From Desulforamulus ruminis DSM 2154 (GTDB lineage Bacteria > Bacillota > Desulfotomaculia > Desulfotomaculales > Desulfotomaculaceae), in contig NC_015589.1 of NCBI RefSeq assembly GCF_000215085.1, positions 2,368,120 to 2,432,119 on the forward strand: a stretch of 64,000 nucleotides of DNA. Direction: 5' to 3'. Below, piece after piece: positions 1,146-32,733 of the stretch. The notes beneath the pieces were generated by a model. That model was not told the DNA's origin. It worked only from the letters and a program-made list of their open reading frames with translations, and ran no database searches. The stretch's first letter is position 1; the number at the start of each line of letters is the position of its first letter. A program made the translations under genes and the position numbers.

Positions 1146-2067
1146 TGACTTCACCTCCGGTTAACAGGTATAAAAGCGCCATTCTTACGGCCACCCCGTT
1201 GGTTACCTGGTCTAAAATCACCGACCGACTGCCGTAGGCCACCTCGGCGCTGATCTCCACCCCCCGGTTAATGGGTCCCGGGTGCAGCACCAGGGCATCC
1301 GGGGCGGTAAGTTCCAGCCGTCTTTGATTCATCCCAAAGAGCCGGCTGTATTCCCGGATAGAAGGGAATAATCCCTGCTGCTGTCTTTCCAACTGTATGC
1401 GCAGCATGTTTACCACATCCGCCCCTTCCAGGGCGGCATCCAATTCTGAATAAACTTTAACGCCCATTTGTTCAATGTCCGGGGGCATCAGGGTGGACGG
1501 GCCGCTTACCCGTACCTCCGCCCCCATTTTGGTCAAGCCCCAGATGTTGGACCTGGCCACCCGGCTATGGAGAATATCGCCCACAATGGCTACCTTCAGT
1601 CCGGTCAGGGTTCCCTTTTTCTCCCGGATGGTAAACAGGTCCAGCAGGGCCTGGGTGGGGTGCTCATGGGTCCCGTCCCCGGCATTGATGACCGCAGCCG
1701 GAATGCACCGGGCCAGGTATTCGGCCGCCCCGCTGGCCGGATGGCGGATCACCACAACATCCACACCCATGGCATTTAAGGTTAAGCCGGTGTCCCGGAG
1801 GCTTTCGCCCTTGGCCACGGAACTGCTGGAAGCGCTGAGCCCCACGGTGTCCGCGCTTAAAAACTTGGCTGCCAGGTCAAAGGAGGATCGGGTCCGGGTA
1901 CTGTTCTCATAAAAGAGTGTAACCACACTCCGGCCTCTTAGAGTCGGTGTTTTCTTGATTTTTCTGCCGATAATTCCTTTCATGGGCACCGCAGTATCCA
2001 ATATCAGGCTTATTTCTTCCGCTGTCAGATCCCTGAGACCCAGAAGATCTTTTCTTTGCCAGCCCAT
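1129..2067 (-). CDS. pyrB: Aspartate carbamoyltransferase catalytic subunit
   Basis: The product condenses carbamoyl phosphate with aspartate, the committed step of pyrimidine synthesis. Its 312 residues are the normal length for a PyrB catalytic chain. The carbamoyl-phosphate-binding motif STRTRSSF begins at residue 56, HPTQALLDL begins at 136, and HPGPINRG begins at 262. No regulatory chain gene (pyrI) is visible nearby, as is usual in Firmicutes where PyrB is a plain trimer. The gene follows pyrR and an attenuator, and its end overlaps the pyrC start. Expression should therefore fall when UMP is plentiful, through PyrR-driven termination just upstream. Confidence 0.97.
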
Positions 2068-2080
2068 CCAATCCCCCCTT

Positions 2081-2122
2081 AAAATAATAAAACCTCAACC
2101 GGGCAGGGATGCCCGGCTGAGG
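2081..2122 (-). terminator. Intrinsic terminator of the pyrB attenuator
   Basis: On the minus strand, between pyrR and pyrB, a GC-rich hairpin (arms CCTCAGCCGGGC and GCCCGGTTGAGG, 2093-2122, one mismatch) is followed directly by a T-rich tract at 2081-2092. It ends 13 bases before the pyrB start, so it can only act by stopping transcription into pyrB and pyrC. Confidence 0.85.
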
Positions 2123-2207
2123 CCGGCAATTTTGCAATGGGGCCCTGAAACGGACCTTCCTTGCGCCTGAATCCCTTTCGGGATAACCTTGCCGGCCTCT
2201 CTGGACC
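2119..2207 (-). promoter_or_regulatory. PyrR-binding site and antiterminator of the pyrB leader
   Basis: The minus-strand leader contains GTCCAGAGAGGCCGGCAAGG at about 2187-2207, which fits the PyrR-binding loop consensus (ARUCCNGNGAGGYU). Its GAGGCCGGCAA part (2189-2199) is perfectly complementary over 11 bases to TTGCCGGCCTC at 2119-2129, which overlaps the 5' arm of the terminator. The two pairings are mutually exclusive: antiterminator when PyrR is free, terminator when UMP-loaded PyrR holds the upstream loop. This is the known Bacillus-type PyrR mechanism, and the pairing is visible directly in the sequence. Confidence 0.85.
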
Positions 2208-2236
2208 GCTTTTAAAGGTGTCGTTCAGGAACCTAT

Positions 2237-2837
<601 letters not shown>

Positions 2838-2852
<15 letters not shown>

Positions 2853-2908
2853 GGCATAGTTTAACCCATATAAAGCGGTTCTATGTCCCTTACCGGCCTC
2901 CCAGGACC
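2838..2908 (-). promoter_or_regulatory. PyrR-binding site and antiterminator of the pyrR leader
   Basis: GGTCCTGGGAGGCCGGTAAG at about 2888-2908 (minus strand) matches the PyrR-binding consensus and closely resembles the second site before pyrB. Its CGGTAAG end can pair with CTTACCG in the 5' arm of the downstream terminator (2844-2850 region), giving the competing antiterminator. The operon thus has two serial attenuators, one before pyrR and one before pyrB. Confidence 0.8.
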
Positions 2909-2930
2909 AAATTAAAGGTTTTCCTGTACA

Positions 2931-2960
2931 AGTTTACCATCGGCCCCTTGGACTTGTCAA
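2931..2960 (-). promoter_or_regulatory. Probable promoter of the pyr operon
   Basis: The minus strand shows TTGACA (2955-2960), an 18-base spacer and TAAACT (2931-2936), a good sigma-A-type promoter. It lies about 25 bases before the PyrR-binding loop, which is where a start for the attenuated leader is expected. Confidence 0.7.
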
Positions 2961-3008
2961 CCCCGATCGACTCGGCGTTGATTTACTCAGCGGATGCTAA
3001 AAAAATAT

Positions 3009-3182
3009 AATGGAACGCGGATTTTGCGGATTTACGCGGATCTTCACGGATTTTTATTTGTAAATATAATTCAGTTAAGCTGCTTTCCTGTATGGGTTAT
3101 TTTCGTAAAGTCATGCTGTTCCTTTTTTATAACGCCCATAAATCCGCGTTAATCCGCCTAATCCGTAAAATCCGTGTTCTAT
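3009..3182. repeat. Dispersed palindromic repeat, copy A
   Basis: Two inverted arms, AATGGAACGCGGATT... (3009-3056) and ...AAATCCGTGTTCTATT (about 3139-3182), are each built of reiterated CGGATT units and separated by about 80 bases of unrelated AT-rich sequence. The same arms recur at four other intergenic places in this window. This copy lies between the pyr promoter region and yqhV and has the longest loop. Confidence 0.8.
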
Positions 3183-3604: not shown

Positions 3605-5056
3605 ATGATCTTGTCGCAAGCAGCCCCAGCAGGCAACAATGAAAATAAGGTGAACAAATTTACCCTGGCCGCACTCGCCGGTGTGCCCCTGATTATGGTG
3701 CTGGGGAACTCCATGCTGATTCCTGTTCTGCCGCAAATGGCCAAGTCTTTACAGGTTTCTCAAATGCAAATCAGCTTAATTATTACCCTGTTTTCCGTTC
3801 CGGCCGGATTGGTGATTCCCTTTGCGGGGTTCCTTTCCGACCGCTTTGGACGAAAAAAGATTATTTTGCCCGGCCTTTTCCTTTATGGCCTGGGAGGTCT
3901 TTTGGCCGGCGTGGCAGCACTCTTTTTTAAAGAAAATGCCTTTCCCTGGATTTTGGGCAGCCGAGTGCTGCAGGGCATCGGGGCCGCCGGTACCGCGCCC
4001 ATTGCCATGGCCTTCTGCGGCGACCTCTGGAAAGGCAAGGAAAGGGCCAAATCTTTGGGTGTCATTGAAGCTTCCAACGGCATGGGCAAAGTCAGCAGCC
4101 CCATTCTGGGAGCGCTGGTGGGTCTGATTGCTTGGTGGGCCATTTTTTTCTTTTTTCCTATTGTCATTACCCTGGTTATCCTGGCAGTCTGGTTTCTCAC
4201 CAAAGAACCCGAAACTCAGAAAAAAACTCAAAAAGTCAGCGAATATGTAGGGTCCATAAAAAAAGTATTCAAGAAAAAGGCGCCGCTGCTGCTTACCAGT
4301 TTTTTTGCCGGTTCTGCCGCCCTGCTCATTTTGTTTGGCGTGCTCTTCTATTTATCCGACTTCCTGGAAAAAAAATATGGCCTGGATGGCGTTTTAAAAG
4401 GCGCCGCCCTGGCCATTCCGGTACTCTTTATGAGCACCACTTCTTATATCACCGGAGCGCTGATCAAGAAAAAAGTGAAATTAATGAAATGGCTGGTGGT
4501 TATAGGTCATGCATTAATTGCCATTTCACTGGTCACCCTGCCCTTGTTTAATAACGTGTACATTTTTTTTGCCGGCATTTCCGTGGCGGGAATTGGCACC
4601 GGTCTGGTGCTTCCCTGCCTGAATACCTTGATTACCGGTGCTACGGATAAAGACGAACGGGGTTTGGTTACTTCCCTGTACGGAAGTGTACGCTTCCTCG
4701 GGGTAGCAGCCGGTCCTCCCCTCTTTGGCTGGCTGGTGGGTATTGGCCCGGACGCCATGTTCTGGGCCTCGGCAGGGCTGGCGGCGGTGGCGGCGGTCCT
4801 GGCCTTTATCTTTATTAAAGTCAAAGCCATCCAGTCATCCCAGCAGGAGGCTCCCCAGGGGGAACCTTCTACCGGGGACAAAAAGCAGCCGTCCCAGGTG
4901 GTTATCCAAGCCGCCGGTCAACCGGCTTTCTTTTACAAAAGTCTGGCCTGGCGCCCCACGGGACAGGTGATTCCGGCAGCCCGCAAGCCCATGCCGGGGG
5001 TTCATCGGGCCAAGCAGGAAGGACAGGTAAATAATGGTGATCAGCAAAACCGGTGA
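3605..5056 (+). CDS. Major facilitator superfamily transporter, probable drug exporter
   Basis: A polytopic membrane protein of about 483 residues with roughly 12 hydrophobic segments. The MFS motif A is clear as GFLSDRFGRKKIILPGL near residue 80, and an antiporter-type motif C-like stretch (GSRVLQGIGAAGTAPIAMAF) follows near 120. These features place it among proton-coupled drug exporters, though the substrate cannot be read. The last 60 or so residues form an unusual hydrophilic tail rich in Gln, Pro and Lys, beyond the final membrane helix. An AAGGA site lies before GTG 3602 and ATG 3605; the latter has the better spacing. It is a single gene, divergent from yqhV. Confidence 0.85.
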   Translation: MILSQAAPAGNNENKVNKFTLAALAGVPLIMVLGNSMLIPVLPQMAKSLQVSQMQISLIITLFSVPAGLVIPFAGFLSDRFGRKKIILPGLFLYGLGGLLAGVAALFFKENAFPWILGSRVLQGIGAAGTAPIAMAFCGDLWKGKERAKSLGVIEASNGMGKVSSPILGALVGLIAWWAIFFFFPIVITLVILAVWFLTKEPETQKKTQKVSEYVGSIKKVFKKKAPLLLTSFFAGSAALLILFGVLFYLSDFLEKKYGLDGVLKGAALAIPVLFMSTTSYITGALIKKKVKLMKWLVVIGHALIAISLVTLPLFNNVYIFFAGISVAGIGTGLVLPCLNTLITGATDKDERGLVTSLYGSVRFLGVAAGPPLFGWLVGIGPDAMFWASAGLAAVAAVLAFIFIKVKAIQSSQQEAPQGEPSTGDKKQPSQVVIQAAGQPAFFYKSLAWRPTGQVIPAARKPMPGVHRAKQEGQVNNGDQQNR

Positions 5057-22946: not shown

Positions 22947-23615
22947 CTAGGCCGGTTTTTCCACGGTATTTTTCCCTCTCAGCCATTCTATCCAGGAAAG
23001 GCAGCCTTCTCCTGTAACAGCCGAAAGCTCCAAAACCGGAACCGCCGGATGAATCTTTTTAATATTGTCTATGAGCTGTTGGGTATCTGCCTGCAGCCTA
23101 TTTTTGAGATCCATTTTATTAATGACCACCAGATCCGCCCCCCGGAACATTACCGGATATTTCAAGGGCTTTTCCGGTCCTTCTGTCAGGCTGGTAACCA
23201 CCACCCGTTGATGTTCTCCCAGGTTAAAAGCTGCCGGGCAGATGAGATTGCCAATGTTTTCAATAAATAGTAAATCCAGACCCTTTAAATGGATATGGGT
23301 CAGGGCACTGGCAATCATCCTGGCGTTTAGGTGACAACTGCCGCCAAAGGTTTCGGTAGCAATTTGCACCGCCTGAATGCCAAACTTGGCCAGCCGCTCA
23401 GCATCATAGGTGCTGGCAACATCTCCTTCAATTACCGCGGTTTGCAAGTCTCCGGCCAACAGTTCCAGGGTTTTCTCCAACAAAGCCGTCTTTCCACAGC
23501 CGGGAGAACCCATCAGATTCACCGCGCGGATGCCGTGCTCCTCAAAAAGCTGCCGGTTCTCTTCGGCCATATTCTCATTGGCCTCCAAGAGCTGTTTTAA
23601 AAGAGTTATCTTCAT
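22947..23615 (-). CDS. hypB: Hydrogenase nickel incorporation GTPase
   Basis: HypB hydrolyses GTP to drive nickel delivery to the [NiFe] hydrogenase large subunit, together with HypA. The 222-residue chain has the P-loop GSPGCGKTA (36-44), metal-site residues Cys94-His95 in GGSCHLNARM, the IENIGNLICPAAF stretch and the guanine motif NKMD. It lacks the N-terminal His-rich or CxxCGC extension found in some species, so it probably does not store nickel. It is the last gene of the ten-gene operon, and its start overlaps hypA by 41 bases. Confidence 0.96.
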   Translation of the reverse strand: MKITLLKQLLEANENMAEENRQLFEEHGIRAVNLMGSPGCGKTALLEKTLELLAGDLQTAVIEGDVASTYDAERLAKFGIQAVQIATETFGGSCHLNARMIASALTHIHLKGLDLLFIENIGNLICPAAFNLGEHQRVVVTSLTEGPEKPLKYPVMFRGADLVVINKMDLKNRLQADTQQLIDNIKKIHPAVPVLELSAVTGEGCLSWIEWLRGKNTVEKPA

Positions 23616-23985
23616 CTTGCGTCATTCCCTCCTTTTCTGCCTCTTCCACCTGGATGAAATCAATGATCATTTCTCCCCCTGCCACCATTTCCACATCTTC
23701 ACTGGAACAATCGGGGCAATGAAACCGGGGCGTTTCCAGGTTTTTTTGCCTCAGACAACGGCGGCAGCGGATCACCAGCGGTATTTCCTCAATTATTAGC
23801 CTGGTTCCCGCGAATGAGGTATTTTGCACCAGCAACTCATAACAGAAACCCAGTGTTTCCGGAACAACCGATGTAAATTTACCGACTTTAAGATGGACCT
23901 CTTTGATCTGCCGACCGCTTCCCAGCTCCTCTTGGTATTCACCAAGGATTTTTAACAAATCCTGGGCCATGGATAATTCATGCAA
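23575..23985 (-). CDS. hypA: Hydrogenase nickel incorporation protein
   Basis: HypA is the small nickel- and zinc-binding chaperone that works with HypB. The N-terminus MHELS holds the nickel ligand His2, and the zinc site is Cys74, Cys77, Cys90 and Cys93. At 136 residues it is somewhat longer than usual, with an acidic C-terminal tail (VEEAEKEGMTQDEDN) that overlaps the hypB start. Belonging to the [NiFe] maturation operon is clear from order and strand. Confidence 0.95.
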   Translation of the reverse strand: MHELSMAQDLLKILGEYQEELGSGRQIKEVHLKVGKFTSVVPETLGFCYELLVQNTSFAGTRLIIEEIPLVIRCRRCLRQKNLETPRFHCPDCSSEDVEMVAGGEMIIDFIQVEEAEKEGMTQDEDNSFKTALGGQ

Positions 23986-24014: not shown

Positions 24015-25034
24015 TCAACAAATCCTCGGCAGTTGGTCTGCCGCCAGGGTGTCTACCAGACGCTTTCCCCCCGTCGCGGTGTGCAGCAAAACCCTGCCGG
24101 CAGGCCCTGAGGTTACCTCGCCGATGATCCGGCTTTCCCTGCCCTGGGGGTGGCTGCGCATGGTCTTCAGTAAAAGATCCGCATCCTCCCGGGCTGCAAT
24201 CACCACCACTTTGCCTTCATTGGCCACATACAGGGGATCAAAACCAATCAGCCGGCACAGAGTAAGGATTTCTTTGCTTACAGGCAGGGCTTCTTCCTCC
24301 AGGGTCAAACCAAAATTCATGCCCCGAACCAGTTCATTCAGTGTGGTGGCCAGTCCGCCCCGGGTGGGATCACGCATGATTTTAATTTGATCCGACACTT
24401 CCAGCATCCCGGCAATCAAGGAGTGCAGCGGGGCCGCGTCACTTTGTATGGCTGTTTCAAAATGAAGTTTCTCCCGGGCGGAAAGAACCGCTATACCATG
24501 ATCCCCAATGGTTCCGTTAATCAACACCTTGTCTCCCACGCGAATTTTCTCCTGGCCCAAAGAAATCCCCTCCTTGACCATTCCCAGCCCGGACATATGA
24601 ATAAACAACCCGTCCGCCTCGCCTCGGCCCACCACTTTGGTATCTCCTGTCACCACTTCAACCCCTGCCAGCCGGGCCGTTTGACCCATGGAGCAAACAA
24701 CCCTTTCCAGCGTATCCATGGTCAGCCCCTCCTCCATGATCAGCCCGCAGGAAAGATACATCGGTGCCGCCCCCATTACCGCCAGATCATTGATCGTCCC
24801 GCAGACCGCCAGCTTTCCGATGTCTCCCCCGGGAAAGAAAAGGGGTTTTATGACATAGGCATCAGTGGTAAAGGCCCATGATGCTTCCTTCAGGTCAACC
24901 ACCGCCGCATCCGCTAAAGGCGCCAGCCTGGGATTGTTAAAACGGGGCAGCAGCAGGCGGTCAATTAAACCGGAGGTCAGCCTTCCGCCGCTGCCATGAG
25001 CCAACAGGATTGTTTCGGTCTTTTGCTCAGAAAT
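24015..25034 (-). CDS. hypE: Carbamoyl-dehydratase HypE; probable ATT start
   Basis: HypE dehydrates the thiocarbamate made by HypF to a thiocyanate, giving the CN ligands of the active-site iron. The chain has LAHGSGGRLTSGLIDRLLLP at the N-terminus, the DAAVVDLKEASWAFTTDAYV segment, RDPTRGGLATTLNEL, and the C-terminal tail ending LPRIC with the essential final Cys. No ATG or GTG lies upstream of the conserved ETILLAHG; the frame is closed by a stop just above. An ATT at 25034, placed five bases after AGGGGTGAT and one base after hypD stops, is the best-supported start; TTG 25004 would lose the first strand. Confidence 0.85.
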   Translation of the reverse strand: MSEQKTETILLAHGSGGRLTSGLIDRLLLPRFNNPRLAPLADAAVVDLKEASWAFTTDAYVIKPLFFPGGDIGKLAVCGTINDLAVMGAAPMYLSCGLIMEEGLTMDTLERVVCSMGQTARLAGVEVVTGDTKVVGRGEADGLFIHMSGLGMVKEGISLGQEKIRVGDKVLINGTIGDHGIAVLSAREKLHFETAIQSDAAPLHSLIAGMLEVSDQIKIMRDPTRGGLATTLNELVRGMNFGLTLEEEALPVSKEILTLCRLIGFDPLYVANEGKVVVIAAREDADLLLKTMRSHPQGRESRIIGEVTSGPAGRVLLHTATGGKRLVDTLAADQLPRIC

Positions 25035-25035
25035 G

Positions 25036-26139
25036 TCAGATCACCCCTCGGTATTTTAAATGGGTTGCGCAGGTTCCCTCGGAAGAAACCATGCAGGGAC
25101 CCGCCGGGTTATCCGGAGTGCAGGATACAGCAAATAAAGAACAATCGCCGGGTGTATTGAGTCCCCGCAAAATCCTGCCGCAAAGACACCCGGGCCTTTC
25201 CCGGGAAGAAACGGCTGCCATGGGAAAAGCGGCCTGGGCATCGTAGAACCGGTATTTTTCTCTGAGCTTGAGCCCGCTGCGGGGAATGGTTCCCAAACCG
25301 CGCCATTCCGTATCCGCCGGTTCAAAAACACTGTACAGGGTCTTTAAAGCCTTGGGGTTTCCCTCTGGCCGGACCGCTCTAAGGTATTGATTGATCACCC
25401 GCGGTTTCTTCCTTATAATCTGTGCTGCCAGAAGAGCAATGGATTCCAGTATATCCGCCGCTTCAAAGCCTGCCACCACACAGGGAAGGGCAAAATCCCG
25501 GGGCAAAAATTGGTATATTTCTGTTCCGGCAACCGCACTGACATGCCCTGGACAAAGGATGCCGTCGATATTGACTTCTCCGCCTGCCACCAGGGCGTGC
25601 AGCACCGGAGGCATTTGTTTACAAAGACTGTACAGGTAAAAATTCTTCAGCCGCATTTTTTCGGCCATAAGTATGGCTGCTGCCACCGTAGGGGCGGTGG
25701 TTTCGAAACCTGCTGCCCAAAAGATGACCCGTTTCTGTGGATGATCCGCCGCCAGTTGCAATGGGTCCATGGCGGAAAGGACTATGCGTACATCACATCC
25801 CTTGGCCTTTTCCTCCAGCAGACTGGATTGGGAACCGGGGATTTTCATCATATCGCCGTAAGTTGCCAGAATGGTGTCGGGCTGCCGGGCATAAACAACA
25901 GCTTGGTCAATGGCGGAAACCGGTGTCACGCACACGGGACAGCCGGGCCCGGAAACCAGCCGGATGTTGGGAGGGAGGATGCTTTTTAACCCGTGCCGGA
26001 AAACAGCAACGGCATGGGTGCCGCAAACCTCCATCACGGTAAGGGACCTGCCCCCGGAAATTTTTTCAATCAGCTTGACCAGTTGATCTATTTTTTCCCG
26101 TTCCCGGTATTCAGCCCTTTGCCCCATGCACCAACTCAC
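25036..26139 (-). CDS. hypD: Hydrogenase iron-cofactor assembly protein
   Basis: HypD is the iron-sulfur scaffold on which, with HypC, the Fe(CN)2CO unit is assembled. The 367-residue chain shows the signature CGTHAVAVFRHG (Cys39, His42) and PGCPVCVTP (Cys67, Cys70), plus the conserved FWAAGFETTAPTVAAA and ILCPGHVSAVAG stretches and Cys residues near the C-terminus for the [4Fe-4S] cluster. The start overlaps the hypC stop (ATGA), and hypE begins two bases after its own stop. Confidence 0.97.
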   Translation of the reverse strand: MSWCMGQRAEYREREKIDQLVKLIEKISGGRSLTVMEVCGTHAVAVFRHGLKSILPPNIRLVSGPGCPVCVTPVSAIDQAVVYARQPDTILATYGDMMKIPGSQSSLLEEKAKGCDVRIVLSAMDPLQLAADHPQKRVIFWAAGFETTAPTVAAAILMAEKMRLKNFYLYSLCKQMPPVLHALVAGGEVNIDGILCPGHVSAVAGTEIYQFLPRDFALPCVVAGFEAADILESIALLAAQIIRKKPRVINQYLRAVRPEGNPKALKTLYSVFEPADTEWRGLGTIPRSGLKLREKYRFYDAQAAFPMAAVSSRERPGCLCGRILRGLNTPGDCSLFAVSCTPDNPAGPCMVSSEGTCATHLKYRGVI

Positions 26140-26372
26140 CCCTTTGCGGTATCTGCTTCAGCAGCGTCGATGCCTGACAACATCTCCAAAATTTCCAACG
26201 CTTCCGTCTCTTTCATTTCCTGAATGGCAAAACCGGCATGAATTAAAACATAGCTATTGAGGGAAGCCTGTTCCAACAACTGCAGATTCACCCGCTGGCG
26301 AACCCCCGCCAATTCAGCGATGCCCCACTGGCCGGTGATCTCCGTTATTTTCATGGGCACTGCAAGGCACAT
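26136..26372 (-). CDS. hypC: Hydrogenase maturation chaperone
   Basis: HypC carries the iron unit from HypD to the large subunit. It is 78 residues long when begun at ATG 26372, which leaves the essential Cys2 (MCLAVPMKI) right after Met. A GTG three codons earlier is in frame, but starting there would bury this Cys, and GAGAGGTGG is placed for the ATG. It overlaps the end of hypF by 22 bases and the start of hypD by four. Confidence 0.95.
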   Translation of the reverse strand: MCLAVPMKITEITGQWGIAELAGVRQRVNLQLLEQASLNSYVLIHAGFAIQEMKETEALEILEMLSGIDAAEADTAKG

Positions 26373-28648
26373 TTTTTCCACCTCTCATTGGCAATGGCCA
26401 CCTGGCCCAGAGCAATGCCGCCATCGTTGGCAGGAATTTCTTTATGGGTATAAACGGAAAATCCTCTCTTGGCCAGGACTCCATGGGATCGTTCCAGAAG
26501 ATAGAGATTTTGAAAAACCCCCCCGGTAAGTACCACGGAATTGATTCCCTGGCGAGCCCGTATCTCTTCACAGGTGCTCCCGATTACTTCCACCAGACTG
26601 TTATGGAACTTGGCCGCGATGATGGGTAAGGGAATGCCTGTCTCCACATCCTTGACAATCCCGTCAAGCACAGGGGCCAAGTCAAATTTCAAAGACTTCA
26701 GCCTCTGAAGGGAGAAATCGTATCTTTGGCCGCAGTTCTTATCCGCAATGGCTTCCAATTCAAGGGCCGCCTGTCCTTCATAGGTTACTTTCATGCGCAG
26801 GCCCAGCAGGGCGGCAACCAGATCAAAGTAGCGGCCCACCCCACAGGCCTCAGGACAGTTGATCCCGGTCTGCAGCAGGGCCTCCAGCAGGGCCCATTCC
26901 TTTCCATTTAAACCCTCTATCAAGGGAATCTTTAAGCCTCCGAAATTTTTACCATACATTTGCTTCAGACAGGCCGCGGCAATCCGCCAGGGTTCCCGCA
27001 GGGCCTGTTCCCCCCCGGGCAAAAAGAGATAGGGAAAATGGGCCAACCGCTGATAACCGGCCAAGTCCGCCAGAAAGAATTCCCCGCCCCACAGCTTGCC
27101 GTCCTCGCCATATCCGGTGCCGTCAAAAACCACACCGATCACCGGGCTGCTCAAACGGTTTTCAACCATGCAACTGGCCACATGAGCGTGGTGATGCTGT
27201 ACTCCCAGGGTTTTCACCCGGGGCAGCGATAAGGCATAGCGGGTGGAAAGATATTCGGGATGCAGGTCATGAGCCACCAGTTCCGGCTGGATGGAAAAAA
27301 GCCGCTGAAAATGAAGAATGGTTTTTTCAAAAAAATCCATCACATCCGCATGATCCAGGTCTCCAATGTGCTGGCTTAAAAAAACCCTGTCGTCCCTGGC
27401 CAGGGCAAAAACACATTTTTGTTGCGCGCCGCAGGCCAGGATATGCTTCTCCAGTTTATAAGCCAATGAAATGGGCCGGGGAACATAACCCCGGGCCCGG
27501 CGGAGGACATACTCCTGATCCCGGTATAGTTTAACCACCGAATCATCACAACGGATGTGAATGGGCCGGTTATGGACCAAAAAATAATCCGCCGCCCCGG
27601 ACAAACTCTCCAGGGCCAAAGAATCCTGGAAAACAATGGGTTCCTCAGAGAGATTTCCGCTGGTAGCCACCAATACCAGTCCGGAGTCTTTAAGCAATAA
27701 ATGATGGATGGGCGTGTAGGGAAGCATCACGCCAAAATATCGTTGCCCCGGGGCTACGCCGGAGGATATCCTGTTAGGTTGCCGTTTCTCCAGCAGCACA
27801 ATGGGCCGCCTGTAATCACAGAGGTATTTTTCTGTCCCTTTGTCCAGCCGGCAAAAAGCTGCCACCGCTTTCTGATCTTCCGCCATCAGGGCAAAGGGTT
27901 TATCCGGTCTGTTTTTTTGTTGGCGCAAACGGCTTACAGCTAAATCATCCGCCGCGTTGCAAACCAGATGATAACCGCCAATCCCTTTAATGGCTAAAAT
28001 CTTCCCCTCTCGCAGTAAACCGGCAGCCTCCCGGACCTCATCTTCACAGGAAATCCGCCTTCCTTTACGGTCCCGGAGTTGCATCTCCGGACCGCAACGG
28101 CAACAGGCATTGGGCTGGGCATGAAACCTTCGGTCCAATGGATTCTCATATTCATGCAGGCAGTGATCACACATGGCAAAGGCCTTCATGGTGGTTTTGT
28201 CCCGGTCGTAGGGCAGGCCCTCCACCAGGGTAAAGCGGGGACCGCAGTGGGTGCAGTTAATCAGGGGGTAGCGGTAACGAGGGTTGTCCGGGTCCATTAA
28301 TTCCTGCAGGCAGTCTGGACAAGTGGCCAGATCCGGGCAAATATAAGGAAGAGGTTCACCCATTCCCTGACTAGATAAAATAATAAAGTTTTTATCCCTC
28401 TTGCTTGGAATTTCCCGGCAGGATACCTCTTTAACCAAAGCCCTGGGGGGTGCCTGAAGGGGCAACTGGGTTAAAAAGCTCTTTAACTTTTCCGGCGCTC
28501 CTTCCACTTCCGCCAACACCCCACCGGGATCATTCAGAACAAAACCGCTTAACCCACATCCTTTAGCCAGTCTAAAAAGATAGGGCCGGAAGCCCACTCC
28601 CTGCACAATACCCCCGACTCTTATTTCCCAGCGCAATGCATCCGTCAC
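26351..28648 (-). CDS. hypF: Carbamoyltransferase HypF
   Basis: HypF converts carbamoyl phosphate to a carbamoyl-adenylate and passes it to the C-terminal Cys of HypE. All parts are present in 765 residues: acylphosphatase domain (GGIVQGVGFRPY, 12-23), two zinc fingers (Cys110, 113, 132, 135 and Cys160, 163, 182, 185), the YrdC-like domain (about 200-380) and the Kae1-like domain with HHHAHVAS near 484. The CX2CX18CX2C spacing is exact in both fingers. It lies directly after the protease gene. Confidence 0.97.
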   Translation of the reverse strand: MTDALRWEIRVGGIVQGVGFRPYLFRLAKGCGLSGFVLNDPGGVLAEVEGAPEKLKSFLTQLPLQAPPRALVKEVSCREIPSKRDKNFIILSSQGMGEPLPYICPDLATCPDCLQELMDPDNPRYRYPLINCTHCGPRFTLVEGLPYDRDKTTMKAFAMCDHCLHEYENPLDRRFHAQPNACCRCGPEMQLRDRKGRRISCEDEVREAAGLLREGKILAIKGIGGYHLVCNAADDLAVSRLRQQKNRPDKPFALMAEDQKAVAAFCRLDKGTEKYLCDYRRPIVLLEKRQPNRISSGVAPGQRYFGVMLPYTPIHHLLLKDSGLVLVATSGNLSEEPIVFQDSLALESLSGAADYFLVHNRPIHIRCDDSVVKLYRDQEYVLRRARGYVPRPISLAYKLEKHILACGAQQKCVFALARDDRVFLSQHIGDLDHADVMDFFEKTILHFQRLFSIQPELVAHDLHPEYLSTRYALSLPRVKTLGVQHHHAHVASCMVENRLSSPVIGVVFDGTGYGEDGKLWGGEFFLADLAGYQRLAHFPYLFLPGGEQALREPWRIAAACLKQMYGKNFGGLKIPLIEGLNGKEWALLEALLQTGINCPEACGVGRYFDLVAALLGLRMKVTYEGQAALELEAIADKNCGQRYDFSLQRLKSLKFDLAPVLDGIVKDVETGIPLPIIAAKFHNSLVEVIGSTCEEIRARQGINSVVLTGGVFQNLYLLERSHGVLAKRGFSVYTHKEIPANDGGIALGQVAIANERWKKCALQCP

Positions 28649-28664: not shown

Positions 28665-29165
28665 CTATGATAAGTTTTCCAGTTTTGACAAATTTTTATT
28701 CAGTTTATCCGGATATAGCAACTGATCACAAAGATCCCTTATCTTTTGAATCACCCGGGGAAGGATGCTTAAAATTTCAGGAGATAGCCCATAGCCTAAA
28801 GTAATCTCCTTTGGTTCAACACCCAGAATGGTAACTGCCGGCGATAGACCAAAAAATTTCATAATCTCAACCACGCTTAAAAAGTCGTCTTCATGTTTTA
28901 ACAGGACCGGGGCCCTTGGCAGCATCTCCTCCGGTTTAAGCAAATAAAGGGTGCCCGGAGCATGCCCCCCCTGCAGGGCGTCCAGCGCAATAATATGCCG
29001 GCAAGCAGCAAAGGCGTCCCAGTAATGATAAAAGGAACCCCCTGCGTTATAAGCCTCCACACCGGCTGGCAGTCCGCTTTTCAGAAGTTCCTCAACAATC
29101 CGGGGGCCAATGCCGTCATCTTTCCATAAGGGATTGCCAATGCCCAGGATGGTGATTTCCGGCAG
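28665..29165 (-). CDS. [NiFe] hydrogenase maturation protease; probable CTG start
   Basis: The product is a HyaD/HybD-type endopeptidase that clips the large-subunit C-terminus after nickel is inserted. The 166-residue frame begins PEITILGIGNPLWKDDGIGP, the family's N-terminus, with the nickel-sensing acidic residue in DDGIG; ALDALQGGHAPGTLY and the GVEPKEITLGYGLSP stretch follow, with His near the third metal site. No ATG, GTG or TTG precedes the conserved start: the frame is closed at the cytochrome b stop codon. CTG 29165, six bases after GGGAGGGG, gives MPEITILG and fits the family exactly. A GTG at 29060 would remove the catalytic N-terminus. Confidence 0.88.
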   Translation of the reverse strand: MPEITILGIGNPLWKDDGIGPRIVEELLKSGLPAGVEAYNAGGSFYHYWDAFAACRHIIALDALQGGHAPGTLYLLKPEEMLPRAPVLLKHEDDFLSVVEIMKFFGLSPAVTILGVEPKEITLGYGLSPEILSILPRVIQKIRDLCDQLLYPDKLNKNLSKLENLS

Positions 29166-29198: not shown

Positions 29199-29783
29199 TC
29201 ACTTTTTGCCGGTAAAGATCGACTTGAGTTTTCTCAAATTATCCGTCAGTGCAAAATAAATATGTCCGGAAATCATGGAAGTAGTTAACAAGGCGATGAA
29301 ATAATGCAATTTGCGGATGGGATTCAGGCCGCCAAAGATCTTTCGAGTCTTCATCCACCGGCCGGAGGCATAAAGAGGCAGCCCGGTGGCGATTTGAGCG
29401 GTGAGCAAAACGCCCAGCCCGGTAAATAAAATTTTCTGGATGGGATTATACTTTTTATATTGCGGTTTATTTGGGGTTAAAAACAATTGATATTTTAAGT
29501 ATTTAGGCAAGCTGTGGATATCTTTCCTTTGCAGGCTGAAATCTTTATAATTTTTGCTTTTGTAACCGTAACAAAGGCGGCCTAAAAAGGAGGCCAAAAA
29601 AATCTGTTGGGCCACGAAATGGGTTTTCTGGGCTGAACGCATATCTTTAAATCCGAGCTTACGATTCGGATCGTTGATATAAAAGCCGCTGAAGATGCAA
29701 GCCAGTACCGCCGACGCATAGCTCCAGTGAAACAGCCTGTTTGGCAGGGAATGACGCGGTTTGGACCTATTTTTAAAAATCAT
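29199..29783 (-). CDS. [NiFe] hydrogenase cytochrome b-type subunit
   Basis: A 194-residue membrane protein of the cytochrome b561-like hydrogenase group. It has four hydrophobic segments and well-placed His residues: RLFHWSYA near 20, THFVAQQ near 55, and LHYFIALL plus SGHIYFA near 160 and 172. In related enzymes it takes electrons from the small subunit and passes them to menaquinone. It lies between the large subunit (22 bases upstream) and the protease. Whether it still meets the hydrogenase across the membrane is open, since the small subunit lacks a working Tat signal. Confidence 0.85.
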   Translation of the reverse strand: MIFKNRSKPRHSLPNRLFHWSYASAVLACIFSGFYINDPNRKLGFKDMRSAQKTHFVAQQIFLASFLGRLCYGYKSKNYKDFSLQRKDIHSLPKYLKYQLFLTPNKPQYKKYNPIQKILFTGLGVLLTAQIATGLPLYASGRWMKTRKIFGGLNPIRKLHYFIALLTTSMISGHIYFALTDNLRKLKSIFTGKK

Positions 29784-29805: not shown

Positions 29806-31215
29806 TTATGGCATGATCATCATTTTTTTTACCGGTTTTCCCGCTACCATCACATGGGCGGAGCAGGAGGAACAAAGGTCAAAGGCACGAATCACCCGGC
29901 AGATTTCCACCGGTTCCTGCTCGTTCTCCACCTGGACGCCCAGCAAGGACTCTTCCACCGGCCCCGGTTGTCCCCGGTTGTCCTTGGGAGAAAAGTTCCA
30001 GGCAGTGGGCGTTACAATATCGTAATTGACGATTCTCCCTTTTTCAATCCGTACCCAGTGCCCCAAAGGACCTCGCATGGCGTCCGTAAGCCCTGCCCCT
30101 ACCCCTTTGCGGGGTGCCTGGTAAGGAAAATATATCGGCTCGGTGAATTTAAGCTCCCGCAGCCACCCCAGCATCAAGAGGCCGATTTCTTGGGCCTCCA
30201 ATGCCCTGGCCAGCAAACGATCCATGGTGGAGATGCCCCGGCAGTCTCCTTTGATCCACATCCGGGCCAAAGGTCCTCCCTCCAGGGCCTGTCCCTGATA
30301 GCGGGGAGCCTTAATCCAGGAATAGGCCCCTTTCTTTTCCCGGTCCGGTTCGCCGGGTATTTGTCCGGGGCTTTTTACTCCCTCCCCATCCTGAGCATAC
30401 CAGGAACGACTGACGTCCTCACGAATAAAAGAAGCATGGAAATTCCGGGCCTGCCCGTCTATGAGAACTCCTTTAGGAAAATACCGTTCTTGATCGTCTT
30501 CATCCACCGGAAATAAGCCGAAAGACAAAAAATTAATTTTTCTTACCCCCATGTGATAGTAGTCCTCATAGACCTTAGCCAGGGTATAAACATCCGGGAT
30601 CATGACCTGGGTGATAAAATGATTGATTTTCTCCAATTTGACCTTAAAATCCCCGATGATCTCCGGGGACGGAGGGACGGTACCGCCGCCGGCCAAAACA
30701 CCATGATTAAAGGGGGTTTTGCCGCCCAGCAATATGATTAATTCATTGGCCAGCCGGCTAAATTCCACCGCCATAAAATAATGCTTCACCATGGCTTGAT
30801 TAACTTTGCGGGACAACCGCAAATCCTGATTAAACCCGTTGGTCAACGGCCCTAAATTGGGCATCCGAACATAATCCGGCATAGAAAAAAGGTAGATTTG
30901 CCGGATATGGTTTTGCAGTATATCGGCGCCAAAAATTAAATTTCTTAAAATAATCCCGTTACGGGGCGGCTTTACACCGGCGGCTTGCTCCAGGGCCATG
31001 GAGGATGCAACACTATGGGCTGAAGAGCAAATACCGCAAATCCGCCCGGTAAGATAAGGAGCATCCCGGGGATCCCTGCCCCGGAGAATGAACTCAAAGC
31101 CCCTGAAAGAATCTCCGATGATCCGGGCGTCAACAACCTTTTTATTTTCTACCATCACTTCCACAGAGGTGGGTGAGTGAACCCTTTGCAGCGGGCTGAC
31201 GGTGATTTTTTTCAA
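29806..31215 (-). CDS. [NiFe] hydrogenase large subunit
   Basis: The catalytic subunit carries the Ni-Fe site. It has 469 residues, slightly short for group 1. N-terminal nickel ligands lie in RICGICSSAH (Cys60, Cys63) and the C-terminal pair in DLCSSCSAH (Cys448, Cys451). The usual Pro after Asp is Leu here. The protease should cut after His454 and release a 15-residue tail. All four ligands are Cys, so it is not a selenoenzyme. It is encoded four bases after the small subunit and is matured by the hyp genes of the same operon. Confidence 0.95.
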   Translation of the reverse strand: MKKITVSPLQRVHSPTSVEVMVENKKVVDARIIGDSFRGFEFILRGRDPRDAPYLTGRICGICSSAHSVASSMALEQAAGVKPPRNGIILRNLIFGADILQNHIRQIYLFSMPDYVRMPNLGPLTNGFNQDLRLSRKVNQAMVKHYFMAVEFSRLANELIILLGGKTPFNHGVLAGGGTVPPSPEIIGDFKVKLEKINHFITQVMIPDVYTLAKVYEDYYHMGVRKINFLSFGLFPVDEDDQERYFPKGVLIDGQARNFHASFIREDVSRSWYAQDGEGVKSPGQIPGEPDREKKGAYSWIKAPRYQGQALEGGPLARMWIKGDCRGISTMDRLLARALEAQEIGLLMLGWLRELKFTEPIYFPYQAPRKGVGAGLTDAMRGPLGHWVRIEKGRIVNYDIVTPTAWNFSPKDNRGQPGPVEESLLGVQVENEQEPVEICRVIRAFDLCSSCSAHVMVAGKPVKKMMIMP

Positions 31216-31219
31216 GCCA

Positions 31220-32350
31220 TCATCCCTTCCTTTTATTCTTTAAAAGGCCTTGCAACCGCATTAAAGTACCGTGCTTCTGATCCTTAAAACCCTTTCGTAG
31301 GTTCCGGGAAAGTCTGCCGGTAACAATGTTGCCGGCCAGGTGCGTCCCGATGCCCAGGGCGCTTATCAGACCGGCGGCCCGGCCCAATTCCTTGGCGGAT
31401 AACCGGATTCCCGGCCATTGAAAATCCGGTAAGTGCTCAAAGAAAGGCATATCATCATCCGGAAATTCCGGACTGGTACATCCGATGCAGGGTGTGTTTG
31501 CCTTTACCGGCCAGCTTATCGGGTCGCCGCTCCACTGGCGGCGGGGACAATCGGCATAGGTGACCGGGCCTTTGCACCCCAGCTTATACATGCACCAAGG
31601 CTCCCCCAACTGCTTGGAGAAGACTCCCTCTTCAAAATAAGGCCGTCTTTCACAAAGTTCGTGAATGGTTTGCCCGTAAAACATGGTAGGACGATGATAA
31701 GCGTCCAGCTCCGGTATGCCATACCAAACCAGATGAGCCAGGGTACCCATTAACCAGTCCGGATGGATCGGGCAGCCGGGTACATTAATGACCGGCCTCT
31801 CCAGAATGGCCTGAACCGGTTTGCTTTGCGACGGATTGGGCGCGGCGGAATAGGGTCCGCCAAAAGAAGCGCAGGTCCCCGCAGCCACCACGTATTTTGC
31901 CTTTGCTCCCAATTCTTGCACGGTCTGTAAAGAGGTGAGGGGTTGGCCGTTTTTCTTCCTGCCCATGACGGAATATAAACCATTGGAGCGGGTGGCAATA
32001 CTTCCTTCAACGATTAAAATGTACTGACCCGGGGCCTCATCCATCACCTGGTACAGACACCGGGTTGCCCGCTCTCCCTCCGCAGCCATCAGCAAATAAG
32101 AGAAGCGGAAATCAATTAAATCCTCGATCATTTTCTGATAACCGGGATCCAGGGAATTTAATAAAGAGAGGTGATCCCCGGAACAGGTATTGGTTCCCAG
32201 CCAAATGACCGGAGGTTTGAAATTGTTTTTAGTCTTAGTTAACCGGGAAAGCAGTTGTGGAGTAAAATCTTCTCTTTGCCTTTTATCCCGGCACCATTTT
32301 ACAAACTGGTCCCTTGAAAAGCGGCTTTTTCCGGTGAAAAAATGACTCAT
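31220..32350 (-). CDS. [NiFe] hydrogenase small subunit with CxGD proximal site
   Basis: A 376-residue iron-sulfur subunit that carries electrons from the Ni-Fe site. The expected ligands are seen for the distal cluster (His230, Cys233, Cys253, Cys259) and the medial cluster (Cys268, Cys288, Cys291). The proximal cluster has Cys56, Cys160 and Cys193, but the second position of the CxGC motif is Asp59 (NTCSGDHLSLL). A 3Cys-1Asp proximal cluster is known in actinobacterial-type (group 1h) enzymes. At residues 12-18, SRDQFVK looks like a Tat motif SRRxFLK with the second Arg lost, and no hydrophobic segment follows, so export is doubtful. It is the first gene of the operon. Confidence 0.93.
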   Translation of the reverse strand: MSHFFTGKSRFSRDQFVKWCRDKRQREDFTPQLLSRLTKTKNNFKPPVIWLGTNTCSGDHLSLLNSLDPGYQKMIEDLIDFRFSYLLMAAEGERATRCLYQVMDEAPGQYILIVEGSIATRSNGLYSVMGRKKNGQPLTSLQTVQELGAKAKYVVAAGTCASFGGPYSAAPNPSQSKPVQAILERPVINVPGCPIHPDWLMGTLAHLVWYGIPELDAYHRPTMFYGQTIHELCERRPYFEEGVFSKQLGEPWCMYKLGCKGPVTYADCPRRQWSGDPISWPVKANTPCIGCTSPEFPDDDMPFFEHLPDFQWPGIRLSAKELGRAAGLISALGIGTHLAGNIVTGRLSRNLRKGFKDQKHGTLMRLQGLLKNKRKG

Positions 32351-32582
32351 CCTGCTTCTCCTCTGATTATCACAATTTTTCCCTCTGAAATATTTGCCTC
32401 CGCTTATCCAAAGGACCTATAATCCCTATTTTCCCCATCATTTGCCAGTCTATGTAAAACCCTCGGCAATCTTTTTCATCCTTCGCTGTGATCTCATGGA
32501 TTTATAGTGTTGCAAACAAAAAAGGGGTTGATGCAAAAACAACCCGGACAGTTCCAAATGCGCACCCCTTATTAATAAAAAG
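32351..32582. other. Leader region of the hydrogenase operon
   Basis: About 230 bases upstream of the small-subunit gene. It carries the ribosome site AGAGGAG near 32360 but no promoter that I would call with confidence. No coding frame or strong hairpin was found. Confidence 0.4.
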
Positions 32583-32668
32583 AATGGAACGCGGATTGAA
32601 CGGATTTCCACGGATTTTATAAAAAAATTTAAAAATCCGTGAGAATCCGTGGAAATCCGCGTTCCATT
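32583..32668. repeat. Dispersed palindromic repeat, copy C
   Basis: The most perfect copy: AATGGAACGCGGATT at the left and AATCCGCGTTCCATT at the right are exact reverse complements, with three further CGGATT/AATCCG units on each side and a short A-rich centre. The RNA would fold as one long hairpin. It separates the hydrogenase operon from rluD. Confidence 0.85.
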
Positions 32669-32733
32669 ATCTTTAACCGGTTGTTCGTTGTGTTATCTCG
32701 CCTGTTTTTTGGCGCACTATAATAAAGTTCCCT

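Follow-up and report, generated by a model that had tools for sequence, protein, structure and literature searches.

An aspartate at the fourth proximal-cluster ligand position of a Desulforamulus ruminis [NiFe] hydrogenase, apparently fixed within a Bacillota enzyme branch

The small subunit of a [NiFe] hydrogenase encoded by Desulforamulus ruminis DSM 2154 has aspartate (Asp59) at the fourth ligand position of its proximal iron-sulfur cluster, where cysteine is usual. The sequence comparisons described below suggest that the substitution has become fixed in an entire Bacillota enzyme branch and is neither an oddity of a single genome nor a sign of resistance to oxygen. The explanation that we consider probable is that the protein belongs to an uptake hydrogenase of a Bacillota branch in which the fourth proximal ligand position carries no thiolate and the electron relay has been retuned. 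The analysed stretch of DNA, called here the window, comprises 64,000 nucleotides (positions 2,368,120 to 2,432,119 of NC_015589.1) and is part of a single contig of 3,969,014 bases. The features on which the argument rests are the following, in window positions; published papers are cited throughout from those portions of their text that were available to us.

31220..32350, minus strand: [NiFe] hydrogenase small subunit, 376 aa (TIGR00391, PF01058 + PF14720)
32183..32185, minus strand: Cys56 codon TGT, first proximal ligand (from the sequence)
32174..32176, minus strand: Asp59 codon GAT (homologous column checked in alignments)
31871..31873, minus strand: Cys160, proximal ligand (Cys throughout the 228 rows counted)
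31772..31774, minus strand: Cys193, proximal ligand (Cys throughout the 228 rows counted)
29806..31215, minus strand: [NiFe] hydrogenase large subunit, 469 aa (PF00374, motif table)
29199..29783, minus strand: b-type cytochrome, 194 aa, membrane partner (PF01292, 94.5 bits, cut-off 30.1)
28665..29165, minus strand: hydrogenase maturation protease (PF01750, profile positions 1-127 of 130)
26351..28648, minus strand: hypF (TIGR00143, 780.4 bits)
26136..26381, minus strand: hypC-like ORF, 81 aa, MCLAVP start motif (ORF reading)
25036..26139, minus strand: hypD (PF01924, 471.7 bits)
24015..25004, minus strand: hypE, AIR synthase-like (PF00586/PF02769)
23575..23985, minus strand: hypA (PF01155)
22947..23615, minus strand: hypB (PF02492)

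The reading frame of the small subunit opens with ATG, directly preceded by the Shine-Dalgarno-like GGAGAAGCAGG, and its product scored 251.1 bits against TIGR00391 (cut-off 179.5), with both the N-terminal and the C-terminal cluster domain present (PF01058 and PF14720). Residues 54-59 read N54-T55-C56-S57-G58-D59, and cysteines occur at positions 20, 56, 98, 160, 193, 233, 253, 259, 268, 288 and 291. In the alignment with the solved small subunit 3myr, C56-S-G-D59 falls on C-T-G-C; by this comparison Asp59 is at the fourth proximal-cluster ligand position, and what a sequence-only reading of the window had reported, namely an NTCSGD motif with Asp59 next to a retained Cys160 and Cys193, was confirmed. 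Two base changes separate the GAT codon from a Cys codon, and a sequencing error at this residue is unlikely because C-x-G-C was never found in the 23 orthologues of the same class. The genome contains one full-length match. An AlphaFold2 model (mean pLDDT 75.3, below 50 at residues 253-289, built without clusters) gave its best structural alignment with 1cc1_S (Z 27.2, where rows within 1 count as tied); the predicted model and the PDB comparison support the fold and nothing beyond the fold, and the absence of 5aa5 from the 50 rows listed carries no weight. The C-terminal stretch of residues 320-376 (31220-31393) ends in a very basic tail, and His337 was invariant in an alignment of 16 rows.

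The hydrogenase operon is intact. The large subunit has the motifs RICGIC (L1) and DLCSSC (L2), so written with a Leu for which most close relatives have Val or Pro, and all four Cys of the Ni/Fe site are present. The first L2 position is a Cys codon in an open frame and not a selenocysteine (Sec) codon TGA, so that the Sec at L2 that defines a [NiFeSe] hydrogenase is absent from the window enzyme; the score against NF033181 was 480.8 bits, under the cut-off of 600. A search of the large subunit for a His column close to the proximal cluster led to no assignment. The cytochrome b partner named by the sequence-only reading proved to be present as well, with PF01292 above its cut-off and His19, His55, His160 and His174, which we take to be the haem-binding residues, in common with C. 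necator HoxZ and E. coli HyaC; TIGR02125 gave 88.6 bits, under its cut-off of 121.5. For the maturation protease, the start given in the ORF list, 29060, lies too far downstream. The seemingly truncated gene had raised the idea of a pseudogene, which was dropped because the frame continues without a stop as far as a likely CTG start codon near 29165. The N-terminal part of this protease lacks ATG, GTG and TTG, and ORF calling with the common starts truncates it. The 81-aa ORF at 26136..26381 is presumably HypC-like, a name that we derive from its MCLAVP start, and the gene at 24015..25004 is assumed to be hypE from its position. Between the small subunit gene and an RluA-family gene lies an imperfect palindrome of about 100 bp (32576-32675) with 66 matches in the same genome, itself and both strands counted, the others being 72-91% identical; it therefore belongs to a dispersed palindromic repeat family.

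The distribution of the Asp was followed through three sets of genomes. A search of 113 genomes of the class returned 23 orthologous places (L038-L060, the window not counted) with 53-66% identity, three of which (L058-L060) are cut by a contig end. The motif was C-x-G-D in 17 of them, C-x-G-N in five and C-x-G-G in one (C-A-G-G in L059), and C-x-G-C in none. The gene was absent from all eight other genomes of the genus, one of which is 72% complete. A scan of named genome contigs, from which the best 80 of 559 loci were kept, revealed among these 80 a residue other than Cys in Desulfoscipio geothermicus, Desulfotruncus arcticus, Candidatus Desulfopertinax cowenii, Thermincola and Tepidanaerobacter, and likewise in Sporomusa, Candidatus Formimonas, Desulfosporosinus, Dethiobacter and Clostridium bovifaecis. 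At the level of the phylum, 398 genomes were searched and 119 had a match at E ≤ 1e-60; we used 110 places, the best ones down to E 1.4e-93, leaving out the weaker places and, within that range, G303:C1, G217:C91 and G019:C14 (identical to L077, which was already included). These 110 places contained C-x-G-C 39 times, C-x-G-D 34 times, C-x-G-N 27 times, a shifted motif eight times and C-x-G-E twice, counts that overlap with the earlier sets, since five places (L202-L206) are class places already counted or the window itself and others coincide with named loci (e.g., L233 and L148, L251 and L156, L254 and L158).

For the phylogeny 43 of 279 rows were dropped as shorter than 220 residues or at least 93% alike, near-identical rows being merged. 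In the resulting 236-row tree of small subunits, calculated with the motif columns excluded, one branch of 133 non-redundant rows received an SH-aLRT support of 100; it is made up of rows from the class of the window, from the genomes of the phylum and from named contigs of Bacillota. None of the 133 rows has Cys at the fourth proximal ligand position, which is Asp in 57, Asn in 39, Glu in four, His in one and Gly in one, with a shifted motif in the remaining 31. The branch was recovered in trees of the small and large subunits together, with 59 rows and a support of 100 in a quick tree of 105 rows and with 18 rows and 100/100 in a careful tree of 42 rows. The forks within the 133-row branch are often weak. 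Three further genome groups, centred on L160, L181 and L188 and presumably from other phyla (296, 247 and 201 genomes searched, with matches in 63, 126 and 32), contributed 75 of their best places, one place that was unreadable at the motif having been dropped. When the 58 non-redundant rows from these groups were added in a FastTree of 294 rows, the 133 rows stayed together unchanged and none of the 58 fell inside the branch.

Over the 294 rows, the state of the position changed between Cys and non-Cys at least six times. Outside the branch the Cys has also been lost from candidate division WOR-3 and Sulfobacillus, from rows of the L181 and L188 genome groups, from a Huc-like row and from the 1h enzymes; all 25 places around the Actinomycetota record L160 have it. 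As judged from the alignments, the loss of the fourth proximal Cys is recurrent among hydrogenases and is common to one large branch in Bacillota, and its occurrence in lineages outside the branch means that it may have no single meaning. Searches of an open-access library, at the level of listings and text passages, yielded no description of a Bacillota branch lacking the proximal Cys; a replacement of this Cys by Asp or Asn is already in print for other groups.

Within the branch the residue is far from constant. Among the 102 rows with C-x-G-x, Asp, Asn, Glu, His and Gly replaced one another at least 23 times, and even the near neighbours L053 and L051 differ as Asp versus Asn. Judging by these sequences, such interchange would not be expected of a strictly required Asp ligand, and the number of changes argues for a retuned proximal cluster and not for oxygen insensitivity. 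At the same time, all 19 rows of the window's own sub-branch have Asp, and so the Asp may be in use there. The remaining cluster Cys columns are occupied by Cys in 97-100% of the 102 rows. Reaching a Cys codon from one for Asp, Asn or His takes two base changes, and for this reason the absence of Cys is by itself no proof of selection. A further peculiarity concerns the fourth position of the medial cluster. Within the branch it is occupied by Pro in 93 of 102 C-x-G-x rows and in all 31 shifted-motif rows, as compared with 22 of 95 rows that have C-x-G-C. The corresponding residue of the window protein is Pro281; read from the alignment, neither its proximal nor its medial site has a fourth thiolate.

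In group 1 enzymes of this kind, H2-derived electrons travel along three clusters, from the proximal through the medial to the distal one, and then by way of cytochrome b to menaquinone. The product of the window gene would be the subunit that transfers electrons in a [NiFe] uptake hydrogenase of group-1 type linked to cytochrome b. H2 would be split at the Ni-Fe site, and the electrons would be taken up by a proximal cluster of raised potential, which could be either a [4Fe-4S] cluster, to which Asp would be a weak and exchangeable ligand, or a [3Fe-4S] cluster. They would then move through a medial [3Fe-4S] cluster, with Pro at its fourth position, and a distal [4Fe-4S] cluster to cytochrome b and menaquinone. 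The ligand change would bias the relay towards H2 uptake, and the enzyme would face the cytoplasm. By analogy with known clusters, the proximal cluster should be retuned in favour of uptake with either cluster type; which of the two is present is not to be read off the sequence, given the reports of 4Fe4S clusters with Asn in the accessible portions of PMC4070099 and PMC5364354. Oxygen tolerance is not implied by the proximal change.

A different reason for the Asp had been put forward by the sequence-only reading, in which it was compared to the 3Cys-1Asp proximal cluster of actinobacterial-type enzymes with unusual oxygen insensitivity. Asp59 does share the alignment position of the Asp in HofK, and that part of the comparison stands; kinship with the actinobacterial type is unsupported by similarity, operon, medial ligand or trees. 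The 1h enzymes are thought to owe their O2 tolerance partly to this Asp (PMC7174314, in the portion available), and in an AU test the joining of 1h to the Bacillota branch was not rejected (p 0.40), so kinship with 1h and a shared origin of the Asp may still apply. We nevertheless regard it as very unlikely that a 3Cys-1Asp [4Fe-4S] cluster renders the D. ruminis enzyme insensitive to oxygen. The host, under the name Desulfotomaculum ruminis, is described as an obligately anaerobic sulfate reducer in its genome paper (PMC3569383), the consulted portions of which do not mention Asp59; this agrees with what the sequence-only reading had said about an obligate anaerobe of the Firmicutes. Moreover, the sequence of the window protein is distant from that of 1h, the medial Cys and the operon typical of 1h are missing, and Asp does not have the standing of a specially conserved residue, since Asp, Asn, Glu, His and Gly replace one another at least 23 times in the branch. 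The proposed oxygen insensitivity finds no support in these alignments. The sequence-only reading had also called an Asp in such a host notable. The anaerobic way of life is real, but the point is weakened because the Cys-to-Asp change has already been published for Geobacter metallireducens (PMC4070099) and Asn or Asp for group 1f (PMC5364354), as far as the available parts of the two papers go.

The retuned relay of the preferred explanation has a special case, in which Asp59 binds no iron, the site holds a [3Fe-4S] cluster and any residue other than Cys suffices. The occurrence of Asn, His and Gly, including C-A-G-G in L059, is consistent with it, as is the [3Fe-4S] cluster of Huc, a hydrogenase with Asn at this position. 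Yet Asp occurs more often than any other residue (57 of the 102 C-x-G-x rows), the uniform Asp of the window's sub-branch suggests that the carboxylate has some use there, and a 4Fe4S cluster has been reported or assumed for Asn proteins elsewhere; we therefore hold this special case to be tenable but rather short of an even chance. It is scarcely credible that the Asp reflects decay, with selection on the hydrogenase having been relaxed in D. ruminis. The end branch of the window row is admittedly long (0.57), the row has the highest count among 16 (15 private changes at columns that are invariant among its 15 close relatives), and the gene is missing from every other genome of the genus that was searched (8/8). 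Set against this, another relative, L125, has 14 private changes, and the window protein has no change at the 28 small-subunit and 29 large-subunit columns that are invariant in the other 58 branch rows. All Ni-Fe ligands and all other cluster ligands have been kept, the accessory genes including the protease are open, and the Asp is common to the relatives. The absence of a thiolate from the fourth proximal position, together with a retuned relay, remains our preferred explanation.

The predicted location of the enzyme follows from its N-terminus. A plain text search for the Tat motif RRxF found none in the window small subunit. In the 105-row tree the motif occurs in 21 of the 59 branch rows (L133-L139, L142-L149, L152, L155, L156, L158, L159 and L161) and in 34 of the 46 other rows; it is absent from the window's sub-branch altogether (the window, L118-L132 and the class rows L039-L056), and also from some rows outside it. 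A stricter Tat pattern with a hydrophobicity rule missed L149 and L161, both of which were found by the plain RRxF pattern. In the class members L052, L054, L057 and L060, no ATG, GTG or TTG is present farther upstream of the protein core than 14 codons. The N-terminus of the window protein contains the motif-like FSRDQFVK, which in our reading resembles the relic of a Tat motif. Depending on where the root of the branch lies, it is likely that the ancestor was exported and that a later move to the cytoplasm took place.

The 31 rows with a shifted motif form a sub-branch in which the motif lies one residue upstream and reads D-S-G-D in 29 rows, C-S-G-D in one (L276) and G-S-G-D in one (L074). 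The loci in question are 25 loci of the class (L061-L085) and L246, L252, L253, L256, L262, L267, L268 and L276. A gapless alignment gives the D-S-G-D rows Ser/Asn in both ligand columns. The shift by one residue is revealed by the sequence N-C-S-G-D-N-N of the intermediate L276, and in our judgement the rows are for this reason best labelled by the shifted reading. The first proximal Cys is thus also missing in 30 of the 31 rows, so that these enzymes keep two of the four proximal Cys, apart from one row that keeps three. The alignment columns contain none that is mostly Cys in the D-S-G-D rows and not in the others, and hence no compensating Cys; Cys20, in the N-terminal tail, is common to D-S-G-D and other rows. 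For the 25 class loci of this sub-branch, neither a Tat signal nor a cytochrome b was found in the stretch around each locus. We tentatively suggest, with some doubt, that a lineage of Bacillota gave up its proximal thiolates stepwise, the fourth Cys and then the first, so that the proximal cluster would now be bound by two Cys together with two Asp, or would be of another kind. We know of no hydrogenase with a proximal cluster of such a make-up, and this sub-branch would test the minimum number of thiolates that a proximal cluster needs. In L061, the large subunit (1683-3083) is broken by an in-frame TAG, which could point to a pseudogene or an assembly error.

A separate observation concerns nine hydrogenases of the same class that have canonical small subunits. 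Their large subunits (L086, at 3992-3994, L087, L088, L090, L094, L102, L105, L108 and L110) have an in-frame TGA at the second Cys of L1 (RICGV-TGA-PISHG), and L2 has Cys in eight of the nine, these being the eight in which the C-terminus was read. This makes the L1 position a candidate site of selenocysteine, instead of the usual L2 position. A literature search covering titles, the beginnings of abstracts and text passages returned nothing on selenocysteine at L1.

The proximal cluster is the first acceptor of electrons from the Ni-Fe site and has been tied both to catalytic bias and to the response to oxygen. In the published material available to us, a fourth ligand other than Cys is discussed mainly for aerobic, oxygen-insensitive or high-affinity enzymes, such as 1h and Huc. 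A large branch of anaerobes with this change, including close pairs that differ as Asp and Asn, offers natural tests of retuned potential or bias versus protection from oxygen.

Compared with known hydrogenases, the window protein would be a group 1 [NiFe] hydrogenase that is linked to cytochrome b but has neither a Tat signal nor the four-Cys proximal cluster of subgroups outside 1f and 1h. The closest parallel for the Asp itself is the 1h enzyme of C. necator, AH (HofKG, PDB 5aa5), with C-D-G-D and Asp at the same alignment position as Asp59. A 3Cys-1Asp cluster has reportedly been described from the HofK structure, along with mutagenesis, by Schaefer in 2016. Otherwise the two differ. Entry 5aa5 ranks only 41st among the 44 solved matches (E 3.8e-36, the best match having E 1.2e-62), the medial cluster of 1h has its fourth Cys (L034 and L035) where the window protein has Pro281, and the C. 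necator AH operon contains NifU-like and DUF5947 genes and no cytochrome b in a gene table that declares itself incomplete. In the 105-row and the 42-row trees 1h is placed elsewhere than the branch. By sequence, operon and medial ligand, the window enzyme fits other group 1 [NiFe] and [NiFeSe] enzymes better than 1h.

Huc of Mycobacterium smegmatis (PDB 7uur/7utd), which we assume to be a group 2a enzyme, resembles the branch in that its fourth proximal ligand is not Cys. Its motif is C-S-G-N, and Asn at this position is shared with 39 of the 102 C-x-G-x rows of the branch; at the medial fourth position the Huc-like row L037 has Lys, and not Cys. As described in the available text of PMC10017518, all three clusters of Huc are [3Fe-4S], an assignment that for the proximal one comes from cryo-EM and EPR. 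According to the authors of that paper, a [3Fe-4S] cluster generally lies about 250 mV above a [4Fe-4S] cluster, and the overpotential is probably tuned in this way. Huc differs from the window enzyme in its group and oligomer (with the HucM stalk, PMC10017518), in having Asn and not Asp, and in belonging to an aerobe that consumes atmospheric H2.

Other natural replacements are listed in the literature, here again from the portions available. Table 1 of PMC4070099 contains natural Cys-to-Asp or Cys-to-Asn cases from Geobacter metallireducens, in which this very ligand is Asp, and from Nostoc; PMC5364354 names Asn or Asp at this ligand for group 1f (Roseiflexus, Geobacter, Frankia) and the coordination of a 4Fe4S cluster by Asn for group 2a. 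These cases come from other lineages, and the portions consulted name neither Bacillota nor a whole branch devoid of the Cys. As cited by PMC4070099, expressed small subunits with unusual ligands kept the expected 4Fe4S clusters. In the screen of the same paper, C81D and C81N variants of an engineered A. macleodii parent kept measurable H2 evolution, their losses being ascribed largely to misprocessing; the activity of these variants indicates that the change is compatible with function.

The nearest relatives among solved structures are of another kind. The large subunit of the window matched 5jsu (D. vulgaris) best (E 1.1e-112), and the best matches of the small subunit were 3myr and then 1cc1 (D. 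baculatum). Group 1 enzymes of the 1cc1/5jsu type have four proximal Cys and are exported through Tat, and the [NiFeSe] members have a medial Cys and Sec at L2. The window enzyme, by comparison, lacks a Tat motif, carries Pro in the medial position and has Cys in L2. Group 1a of HydDB, which according to the available text of PMC5037454 is the group of sulfate, metal and organohalide respiration and includes the [NiFeSe] variants, would by sequence similarity be the likeliest label for the window enzyme.
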